Of a stretch of DNA of 40,497 bases, positions 33,581-37,563 are shown piece after piece; positions within the stretch are counted from its first letter, which is position 1, and each line of letters begins with the position of its first letter. Below the pieces are notes generated by a model. That model searched no databases, was not told where the DNA came from, and saw only the letters and a program-made list of their open reading frames with translations. A program made the position numbers and the translations under genes. The stretch spans positions 104,244 through 144,740 of the forward strand of contig PXUB01000025.1 of NCBI GenBank assembly GCA_003009755.1. Reading direction: 5' to 3'. This DNA comes from Thermoplasmatales archaeon SW_10_69_26. GTDB lineage: Archaea > Thermoplasmatota > SW-10-69-26.

Positions 33581-34210
33581 TCAGCGTCGTTGCCAATCGC
33601 TGTCGGGCTCGCGGGCGGCCTCGTGGTCCGCCGTCGTCGACCGGGAGACGTCGGTCACCGTCGTCGCCAAGTGCCGCAAGGCCGTCGCCTCGCGCTCGTC
33701 GTGCATCCCGGGGATGACGCGAGCGACGGCCACGACCCCCATGCGAGGCGCCATCGACGCGATCGATTGCCCGAACCGGTAGGCCTCGTTGAGGCCGTTG
33801 GTCACCAGCAGGCTGGAGAAGCTGTCGACGACGACGGCGTGCTTGGGGGCCTTCTCGACGACGCCGGCCTGTGCCTCCGAGAGCGCGAGCAAGATCGCGT
33901 CCACGTCGGGGGTCTCGGCGAACACCGTCTGGGGCGCGGTGTGGGCCCAGCCGACGGTGGGGGCGTGGGCGTCCACGTAGGCCAGCCGGCCCTGGCCCTC
34001 GTGGTCGTCTGTGGGGACGTCCAGGCGGGCAAGCTCGGCCCGGTACTGCGGGGTCGCCTGATCGACGAGCACGTTGACGACCGGCTGACCTCGGTCCAGC
34101 AGCTCGCCCGCCAAGCGGGGCCCCAAGGGTAGGGCCCGGGTCTCGGGGTCGTCGAAGAGCAGGTGCAGGCCGGGCTGGGAGGGTACGACGAGATCGGTGT
34201 CCCCGGACAC
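33581..34210 (-). CDS. RecA-fold (RAD55/KaiC-like) protein without a P-loop
   Basis: A 209-residue protein that resembles the archaeal RAD55/KaiC-like ATPases along its length: a first strand and helix (LAGELLDRGQPVVNVLVDQ), VDAHAP, a Walker-B-like strand HAVVVDSFSSLL near residue 130, and the family-typical VIPGMHDEREATALRHLATTVTDV near the end (quoted as VIPGMHDEREATALRHL and TTVTDV). The Walker A GxxxxGKT expected near residue 15-25 is replaced by PGLHLLFDDPETR, so ATP binding of the usual type is unlikely. I choose GTG at 34210 because a TATA-like tcaagtacc lies 26 nt upstream; ATG at 34246 would place the TATA inside the gene. Role unknown, perhaps regulatory. Confidence 0.75.
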   Translation of the reverse strand: MSGDTDLVVPSQPGLHLLFDDPETRALPLGPRLAGELLDRGQPVVNVLVDQATPQYRAELARLDVPTDDHEGQGRLAYVDAHAPTVGWAHTAPQTVFAETPDVDAILLALSEAQAGVVEKAPKHAVVVDSFSSLLVTNGLNEAYRFGQSIASMAPRMGVVAVARVIPGMHDEREATALRHLATTVTDVSRSTTADHEAAREPDSDWQRR

Positions 34211-34231
34211 GGGACGGGCTCGCCCGATCGG

Positions 34232-34240
34232 GGTACTTGA
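34232..34240 (-). promoter_or_regulatory. TATA box for the RecA-fold gene
   Basis: Minus-strand tcaagtacc, centred 26 nt before the GTG at 34210; this spacing decides the start of that gene. Confidence 0.45.
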
Positions 34241-34356
34241 GCCCATGGGCCTTGGACCTTCTCCCCGGGCATCGTGCTCGCTTGGTCCCCTCCGTCGCGT
34301 CGGTCCTTGGGGGCCCGATCACACCGGCGAGGGGCCCGTCGCCGGCGACCTGGGAA

Positions 34357-35897: not shown

Positions 35898-36101
35898 TCA
35901 GCGCAGCATCGCTCGCTGGATCAGCGGCAGGTTCTTGGTGGGCTCGATCTCGATCTCCAGGACGTCCTCGTCGCTGAGCTGCCGGTGGGTTCGGACCGCG
36001 GCCTGCAAGGCGGTGACGTAGTCGGCCACGTCGTCGTAGCGGTCGGCTCCCAAGCGCAAGCCGGAGCTGGTTTCGTCGTCGGTCAGGGGGTACGCCTCCA
36101 C
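35898..36101 (-). CDS. Microprotein A, paralog of the next small gene
   Basis: A 67-residue acidic protein of unknown function. It starts at the GTG at 36101, placed 24 nt after the TATA box ctatataag; the frame remains open upstream but would run through the promoter. Its second half reads DDVADYVTALQAA, then DEDVLEIEIE, and ends AMLR. The same pattern (V-x-D-Y-x5-LQA, D-E-x-x-E-I-E, MLR at the very end) is present in the small gene at 36208-36369, so the two are probable tandem paralogs. No signal peptide, cysteine or membrane segment. Its end is 3 nt from the convergent pepA stop. Confidence 0.65.
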   Translation of the reverse strand: MEAYPLTDDETSSGLRLGADRYDDVADYVTALQAAVRTHRQLSDEDVLEIEIEPTKNLPLIQRAMLR

Positions 36102-36120
36102 GGTTTGGGTCGCGCGAGCC

Positions 36121-36129
36121 CTATATAAG
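36121..36129 (-). promoter_or_regulatory. TATA box for microprotein A
   Basis: Minus-strand cttatatag, one of the clearest TATA boxes in the window, centred 24 nt before the GTG at 36101. Confidence 0.65.
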
Positions 36130-36207
36130 CGTTGTCGGGAAGCTCCCTTCGTTCCCCGCCGACGGCTGAGCGGTCGCGAAGCGGGCTTCACCGCGAGTGA
36201 CGGGCCC

Positions 36208-36369
36208 TCAGCGCAGCATCTGGGTCTCGGCTCTCGTCAACCCGGCATCGCGGGACTCGATCTCGAACGTCTCGTCCCCCCGGCCAGCAGACTCTTGGTT
36301 CAACGCTTGCAGGAAGGTGCGCAGATAGTCGCCCACGTTCGTGAAGTCTTGGACGTTCAGGGTCACCAC
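36208..36369 (-). CDS. Microprotein B, paralog of microprotein A
   Basis: A 53-residue protein that reads VVTLNVQDFTNVGDYLRTFL, continues LQALNQ, DETFEIES and ends TQMLR. It matches microprotein A at V-x-D-Y, LQA, DE-x-x-EIE and the terminal MLR; both genes end in the same bases atgctgcgctga. It starts at the GTG at 36369 (a second GTG follows directly) and has its own TATA-like cttaatacc about 31 nt upstream. Coding potential is supported mainly by this paralogy and promoter placement. The predicted fold would be a helix followed by a strand, with V-x-D-Y on the helix. No function can be assigned. Confidence 0.6.
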   Translation of the reverse strand: MVTLNVQDFTNVGDYLRTFLQALNQESAGRGDETFEIESRDAGLTRAETQMLR

Positions 36370-36395
36370 CGCCACCCCTTCGTCGCCGGCAGACC

Positions 36396-36404
36396 GGTAT
36401 TAAG
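36396..36404 (-). promoter_or_regulatory. TATA box for microprotein B
   Basis: Minus-strand cttaatacc, centred about 31 nt before the GTG at 36369. Confidence 0.45.
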
Positions 36405-36521
36405 CCTTACCCAACCGCCGGAACGGACACCCGGCCACCGGGGGAGGGAGCACAGGTCCGAAGGAAGGGGTCTGAGGGGCCCCTGGCGTCGGCTGCAGGG
36501 CGGCTGGGTAAGGGGGACGGG

Positions 36522-36531
36522 ACTTTTATCT
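36522..36531 (+). promoter_or_regulatory. TATA box for the arginine decarboxylase operon
   Basis: The motif acttttatct is centred about 27 nt before the GTG at 36554. Confidence 0.55.
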
Positions 36532-36553
36532 CCGAAGGTGTTCAGCCGGCACC

Positions 36554-37030
36554 GTGACATCCCTCGTTGAGGTTCCCTCCCAGTACTTCGTCACGTCCGG
36601 GTCGGCGACCTCGCCGGTGTCGAACCTGAACGCCTTCGACCAGGCGTTGCTCGAGGCGGAGATCGGGGAGCAGAACATCGTGCCCGTCTCCTCGGTGCTG
36701 CCGGTCGGGATTGAGGAGACCGATCCGGTCCAGATCCCTCGGGGAGCGATCACCCACTGCGTGCTGTCCCAGGAACGAGGCACGGAAGGGGAGACGATCA
36801 GCGCCGGTATCGCCTACGCCTTCCGCGAGGACGGCGACGGCGGTTACGTGGCCGAGGGCCACGGCAAGATGGGCGACAAGGCGTTGCGCGAGATCCTCGA
36901 GTGGAAGATCAACGAGATCGCCAAGCACCGCGATGTGGCGCTCGGCGACATCAGCTACCGGATCGAAGCCCAGGAGGTCCCGATGGACGAGTACGGAGCC
37001 TGCCTGGCAGCGCTCGTCCTGCTCCCCTGA
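36554..37030 (+). CDS. pdaD: Pyruvoyl-dependent arginine decarboxylase
   Basis: A 158-residue enzyme that makes agmatine from arginine, the first step of archaeal polyamine synthesis and the source of agmatine for the tRNA-Ile2 agmatidine modification. The proenzyme cleaves itself between Ser46 and Ser47 in VPVSSVLP, turning the second serine into the pyruvoyl cofactor of the alpha chain. Other family blocks are YFVTSGSATSPVSNLNAFDQA near residue 11 (quoted as YFVTSGSATS and LNAFDQA), the IPRGAITHCV strand and YGACLAALVLLP at the end. The GTG lies 27 nt after a TATA box. The next gene follows after 5 nt. Confidence 0.95.
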   Translation: MTSLVEVPSQYFVTSGSATSPVSNLNAFDQALLEAEIGEQNIVPVSSVLPVGIEETDPVQIPRGAITHCVLSQERGTEGETISAGIAYAFREDGDGGYVAEGHGKMGDKALREILEWKINEIAKHRDVALGDISYRIEAQEVPMDEYGACLAALVLLP

Positions 37031-37035
37031 CCGCC

Positions 37036-37563
37036 ATGGGCTACCTCGTCGTCGGGTGCTCGGGCTGTGGGACGCCGCGCGTGGCCGAGGCCGACAAGTC
37101 CACCGCCCAGTGCCCGCGCTGTGGGACGACGATCCAGCTCGACAAGGCTCGGATCCACGCCCGCACCGACGAGCTGGCCAAGGCCCAAGACGCCGTCGGA
37201 CAGGTGAACGCTCAGCGCGCCGGCGGCGAGCTCGTGCGCCCGGATCGGTCGACCCCCGCCGAGGCCGCCGGCGAAGAGACCGACGAGGCCGACGAGGGCG
37301 GCGTGGAGCCCTCACCGAGCGCTCGCGACGACATCGACCGGGCGCTCGCGCAAGCGCGCGAGGTCTCCAGCGAACGGATGCGGGTCCGGCTGACCGCCGA
37401 GGGGTTGACCCAGCAGCTGGGCACGTTCACCGAGGAGGACTGGTTGGCGGCGATGGATCGTCTGGACGTCTCCGAGCCCCGGGCTCGCGAGCACCTGCAA
37501 CGGCTGTCGCTTCGGTCGATCGTGGCCGAGCCCGAGCACGGCACCTACCGCTACATCGAGTGA
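37036..37563 (+). CDS. Zinc-ribbon protein with C-terminal winged-helix-like domain
   Basis: A 175-residue protein. The N-terminal zinc ribbon (residues 1-40) reads GYLVVGCSGCGTPRVAEADK then CPRCGTTI, with Cys8/Cys11 and Cys26/Cys29 as ligands; it resembles DUF1922-type and related archaeal ribbons. A low-complexity acidic linker follows (about 65-100), and residues about 105-175 look like a winged helix (EEDWLAAMDRLDVSEPRA, HLQRLSLRSIVAEPEHGTY). It may be a DNA- or RNA-binding protein. The ATG lies 5 nt after the arginine decarboxylase stop, so they share a transcript. The link to polyamine synthesis is by position only. Confidence 0.8.
   Translation: MGYLVVGCSGCGTPRVAEADKSTAQCPRCGTTIQLDKARIHARTDELAKAQDAVGQVNAQRAGGELVRPDRSTPAEAAGEETDEADEGGVEPSPSARDDIDRALAQAREVSSERMRVRLTAEGLTQQLGTFTEEDWLAAMDRLDVSEPRAREHLQRLSLRSIVAEPEHGTYRYIE

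Follow-up and report, generated by a model that had tools for sequence, protein, structure and literature searches.

What are the two small open reading frames that lie side by side between a leucyl aminopeptidase gene and a pyruvoyl-dependent arginine decarboxylase gene in Thermoplasmatales archaeon SW_10_69_26, and how are they related? The window, that is, the whole stretch of 40,497 nucleotides analysed here, has a GC content of 68% and comes from a 2.8-Mb genome. A first-pass annotation had described the frames as a tandem pair of same-strand microprotein paralogs of 67 and 53 codons, linked by shared motifs, each with its own TATA box. Both frames are indeed present, on the minus strand. 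The length of the first, gene A, stands at 67 codons; the second, gene B, is better taken as 55 codons, starting at 36375 rather than as 53 from 36369. The two genes, 106 bp apart, sit between the convergent aminopeptidase gene and the divergent decarboxylase gene, as follows.

33581-34246, minus strand: DUF7504/KaiC-like protein, 221 residues
34197..35894, plus strand: leucyl aminopeptidase (Peptidase_M17), convergent; Pfam E 1.5e-110; exact start uncertain
35898..36101, minus strand: gene A, 67 residues (VEAYPLTDD...IQRAMLR), GTG start of leaderless type
36122..36129, minus strand: TATA-like box of A, CTTATATA, matrix score 10.5; 28 nt upstream of the GTG start at 36101
36208..36375, minus strand: gene B, 55 residues (MAVVTLNVQDF...AETQMLR), GTG start at 36375
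36397..36404, minus strand: TATA-like box of B, CTTAATAC, matrix score 9.6; 29 nt upstream of the GTG start at 36375
36523-36530, plus strand: TATA-like box of the decarboxylase gene, before the gene start at 36554
36554..37030, plus strand: pyruvoyl-dependent arginine decarboxylase (PvlArgDC), divergent; Pfam PF01862 E 6.5e-36
37036-37563, plus strand: DUF5817 zinc-ribbon protein, directly behind PvlArgDC

Do A and B encode proteins at all? Long spurious frames are abundant in DNA of 68% GC, and the similarity between A and B is weak when taken alone, as would be expected if the frames were open by chance. However, the GC contents at the three codon positions are gene-like (0.70/0.39/0.94 in A and 0.64/0.40/0.85 in B) and resemble those of such proven genes nearby as PvlArgDC (0.66/0.42/0.90). 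The TATA-like boxes of A and B are among the window's top five, the profile statistics point to a family, and both frames are conserved in a second genus, a comparison on which the first-pass annotation had staked its proposal and which the proposal survives. Second-genus conservation together with the leave-one-group-out profile result described below refutes the chance reading, the probability of which is practically nil. Judged by open frame, codon GC, profile and ortholog at the matching place, A and B are genuine protein genes.

The nearest relative compared is the metagenome-assembled genome PWVY01 (G001), "Thermoplasmata archaeon isolate CSSed11_322R1", from a study of hypersaline soda-lake sediment (PMC6146748), which belongs to the same family as the window's genome and to a different genus. 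Used as queries, A and B each find one ortholog there, in the order and place seen in the window. The identity is about 35% for each, versus 70% for PvlArgDC. A third member, C, was first found with B as the query, and profiles then located C and a fourth, D, in both genomes. The further members are the following.

L067/L032 126-308, minus strand, PWVY01: ortholog of A; the end of the M17 aminopeptidase ortholog adjoins it, in L032
L067 389-538, minus strand, PWVY01: ortholog of B, with the PvlArgDC ortholog beside it
L033 4366-4518, plus strand, and L063 2024-2182, plus strand, in the two genomes: C, next to an Mrp/NBP35 gene
L066 2571-2750, plus strand, window's genome: D, directly behind a 2-oxoacid-dehydrogenase E2 gene
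L065 2843-3022, minus strand, PWVY01: D1, again directly behind a 2-oxoacid-dehydrogenase E2 gene; it has a TATA-like box of its own
L065 2642-2827, minus strand, PWVY01 only: D2, a second D copy, with a TTG start shortly behind a Shine-Dalgarno-like GGAGG

The A-B pair, C and D each stand beside a corresponding gene in the two genomes. There are four copies in the window's genome (A, B, C and D) and five in PWVY01, nine members in total, of 49-67 residues. A and B are adjacent paralogs on one strand, but not an isolated pair, being two of the four members in this genome. D1 and D2 (L065 2642-3022, C36 of PWVY01) resemble a true tandem operon behind E2; the window's genome has a single D. D2 may be an older copy lost from the window's genome, or a later duplicate.

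The paralogy of A and B is borne out through these other members, and not by the motifs or the direct similarity from which it had been proposed. The last four codons of the two genes are identical, ATG CTG CGC TGA. The motif V-x-D-Y-x(5)-LQA matches neither protein, since the spacing is 3 in A and 4 in B, and DE-x-x-EIE matches B but not A, which has three intervening residues. In a direct Smith-Waterman comparison, A against B gives a z of 2.6, with 10 of 500 shuffles scoring equally well. The decisive evidence is a leave-one-group-out test, in which each group was sought by hmmsearch with a profile made solely from the remaining groups, against 3621 decoys (shuffled sequences and window sequences). 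The A group was recovered at E-values of 1.3e-7 (A of the window) and 2.4e-4, the B group at 2.7e-8 (B of the window) and 6.3e-6, the C group at 3.6e-5 and 3.9e-5, and D0 and D1 at 3.5e-6 and 1e-7; the best shuffled decoy reached 0.017. D2 is absent from the top rows of this test and joins the family via D0 (z 10.5). Each group being recovered above the decoys by the profiles of the others, A, B, C and D are, by these profile scores, a single paralogous family.

The order in which its branches arose is less sharply drawn. In the best tree, A falls with D and B with C, without significant support (55/82), and a tree in which A and B are held together is not rejected (AU p = 0.16). The pairwise z scores point in the same direction as the best tree: 10.8 for A1-D1 and 14.3 for B0-C1, against 2.6 for A0-B0. 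This tendency makes a simple tandem duplication of A and B doubtful; the pair is perhaps two old types standing side by side. The duplications behind A, B, C and D predate the split of the genera, since each has an ortholog in both.

The proposal of an own TATA box for each gene at a leaderless-type distance agrees with the sequence: the boxes lie 28 nt (A) and 29 nt (B) before the GTG, a spacing that fits the one expected for leaderless archaeal transcripts. The scoring matrix was built from six boxes, that of PvlArgDC among them, with those of A and B left out. When both strands of the whole 40-kb window were scanned, the boxes of A and B were both within the five best 8-mers, the top-scoring 8-mer being the PvlArgDC box, itself part of the matrix. 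Of the window's five strongest TATA-like boxes, three fall inside a 410-bp interval (36122-36530), ahead of A, B and PvlArgDC. No Rfam element was found in the intergenic region. For most of the family, a TATA-like box stands 28-41 nt upstream of the start, and the genes are apparently monocistronic; the sister-genus copy of B is without a box at the equivalent position. Of the suggested separate control of a regulated pair, the separate predicted promoters remain. They are not special evidence for such a pair, since most members and the neighbouring PvlArgDC also have a box of their own.

Separate promoters, together with convergent or divergent neighbours for A, B and C, argue against operon-style subunits and also against a toxin-antitoxin or other two-gene addiction pair, which two small, adjacent, same-strand genes might bring to mind. 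Here the genes are 106 bp apart, both proteins belong to one family instead of being toxin plus antitoxin, the chromosomal site is fixed in two genera, PADLOC gives no match, and the phage, viral and plasmid collections hold no relative. An addiction pair is therefore very improbable.

What, then, could the proteins do? Only M1, Y17 and, near the end, L54 are invariant across the nine-member alignment. None of the nine contains a cysteine, no polar residue besides the helix tyrosine is conserved, and the conserved set includes nothing catalytic, metal-binding or basic. The AlphaFold2 models, two monomers (one for A, one for B) computed from four-sequence alignments, show the same order of elements in both, namely strand, long helix, strand and short helix, at low confidence (pLDDT 63 for A and 66 for B). 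The predicted layout, likewise of low confidence, would be beta-alpha-beta-alpha, in which the first helix, long and amphipathic, carries the invariant Tyr and the second, at the C-terminus, is short. Two Foldseek searches against the PDB with these models returned no matching fold. The proteins are probably soluble and single-domain.

Since conservation is confined to structural positions, cysteine is absent and none of the kept residues is catalytic, metal-binding or basic, an interaction module is likelier than an enzyme, a zinc-binding protein or a DNA-binding protein of basic character. We tentatively suggest, as a reading somewhat short of an even chance, that A and B belong to a clade-restricted microprotein family of separately transcribed adaptor or regulatory modules. 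The members would form homo- or hetero-oligomers that mediate protein-protein contacts, perhaps of two types, A/D and B/C, each transcribed separately and acting on a partner of its own. Alternatively, the scarcity of conserved polar residues could reflect fast divergence, as seen over nine sequences. A bolder version, in which the family is a clade-specific oligomerisation domain that originated among halophilic Thermoplasmata and whose two interacting types, A/D and B/C, build combinatorial hetero-oligomers on housekeeping machines (arginine decarboxylase, 2-oxoacid dehydrogenase and the Mrp Fe-S carrier), is improbable.

Could the members instead bind DNA or RNA as small regulators of a neighbouring gene or a scattered regulon, folded as Arc/ribbon-helix-helix-like dimers or in some other mini fold? 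Their size suits micro-regulators, B and PvlArgDC have the upstream region 36376-36553 in common, and one member has a weak Arc-like match in PHROGs (E 0.21). That match does not rise above noise, however, and no other member shows it; none matches any DNA-binding family of Pfam. Ribbon-helix-helix proteins (Arc/CopG) are of similar size and combine one strand with helices, but the order predicted here at low confidence, beta-alpha-beta-alpha, appears to differ from their strand-helix-helix, and the basic N-terminal strand of such regulators is not evident. In the window's genome the members are acidic, with a pI of 4.1-4.7, so that nucleic-acid binding through a basic surface is not indicated; those of PWVY01 are less acidic, the orthologs of A and B being basic and neutral, and surface charge is thus not conserved. 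We consider a nucleic-acid regulator unlikely.

A further alternative is that the members are lineage-specific regulators of the enzymes encoded beside them: A and B would act on arginine decarboxylase or aminopeptidase, D on the E2 complex and C on Mrp/NBP35. All three neighbourhoods are conserved between the two genera. Against this, the neighbours of A, B and C are convergent or divergent, without co-transcription; DUF5817 and thioredoxin, which complete the PvlArgDC block, are also kept, so the synteny may be merely inherited; and in other families of the class the same enzymes occur without adjoining microprotein genes, the profile finding no member at their Mrp, E2 and PvlArgDC loci. Regulation of the adjoining enzyme is accordingly doubtful, and the adaptor or regulatory interaction module remains the reading that we prefer.

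Known small proteins offer partial likenesses. Proteins of the 4-oxalocrotonate tautomerase type have about 60 residues, a beta-alpha-beta start, an oligomeric state and a catalytic Pro directly after Met. The present family has that size and, as predicted, that start. In contrast, residue 2 of the nine members is A, T, N, N, E, R, T, S and T, never Pro, and neither Foldseek nor profiles gave a match to the tautomerases. The haloarchaeal micro-proteins of the HVO_0758 class are, like the present family, shorter than 70 residues, found in salt-loving archaea and encoded by many genes per genome; HVO_0758 of Haloferax volcanii is a zinc-finger micro-protein with a leaderless transcript (PMC10716476). 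The best studied of these carry C(P)XCG zinc motifs (PMC10716476), which are absent from the cysteine-free proteins described here.

The view that A and B match no known family is supported by the database searches. Single-sequence scans of Pfam, NCBIfam, PHROGs and PADLOC gave nothing above the curated cut-off or at E <= 0.001, and Pfam scans with consensus sequences and a PDB profile search gave noise only. The nine-row profile recovers the four members in the window's genome and the five in PWVY01, and no credible member among the five other genomes of the class or some 390 of the phylum. Two genomes are too few for co-occurrence or covariation analysis. Two candidate relatives, apparently secreted proteins from genomes of family f16 and a Gly-rich protein of genome G006, were rejected because of partial matches, a different context and E-values at noise level after 390 genomes. 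The proteins from the f16 genomes (L141, L140, L142 and L144) form a multi-copy family of about 290-320 residues that share a QYQNLEQYLVEF-like helix following the signal peptide; the one tested had no Pfam match, and there were five matches in a single genome, G072.

By these searches, the A-D family appears undescribed in the libraries covered and clade-restricted to halophilic Thermoplasmata. Lineage-restricted archaeal microproteins are an ordinary kind of finding. This one adds a well-supported family, with four to five proteins of fewer than 70 residues per genome, to a lineage known from metagenomes alone, and includes members of 49-52 residues, a size that annotation often skips. A comparison of two genera suffices here to tell real microgenes from spurious frames in DNA of 68% GC. 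If the proteins are interaction modules, the family would be a small, testable example of how microproteins diversify within one lineage.

As to the flanking genes, the 221-residue DUF7504 protein had no close relative in a peptide-pattern search of the species-representative collection, and no match when used as a query in the genome-contig search. Behind PvlArgDC, a zinc-ribbon protein similar to the DUF5817 one is also found in PWVY01, G002 and G004, and in the latter two PvlArgDC adjoins an asparaginyl-tRNA synthetase-like gene instead of family members. The pairing of PvlArgDC with the zinc-ribbon gene therefore probably predates the A-B pair on its other side.
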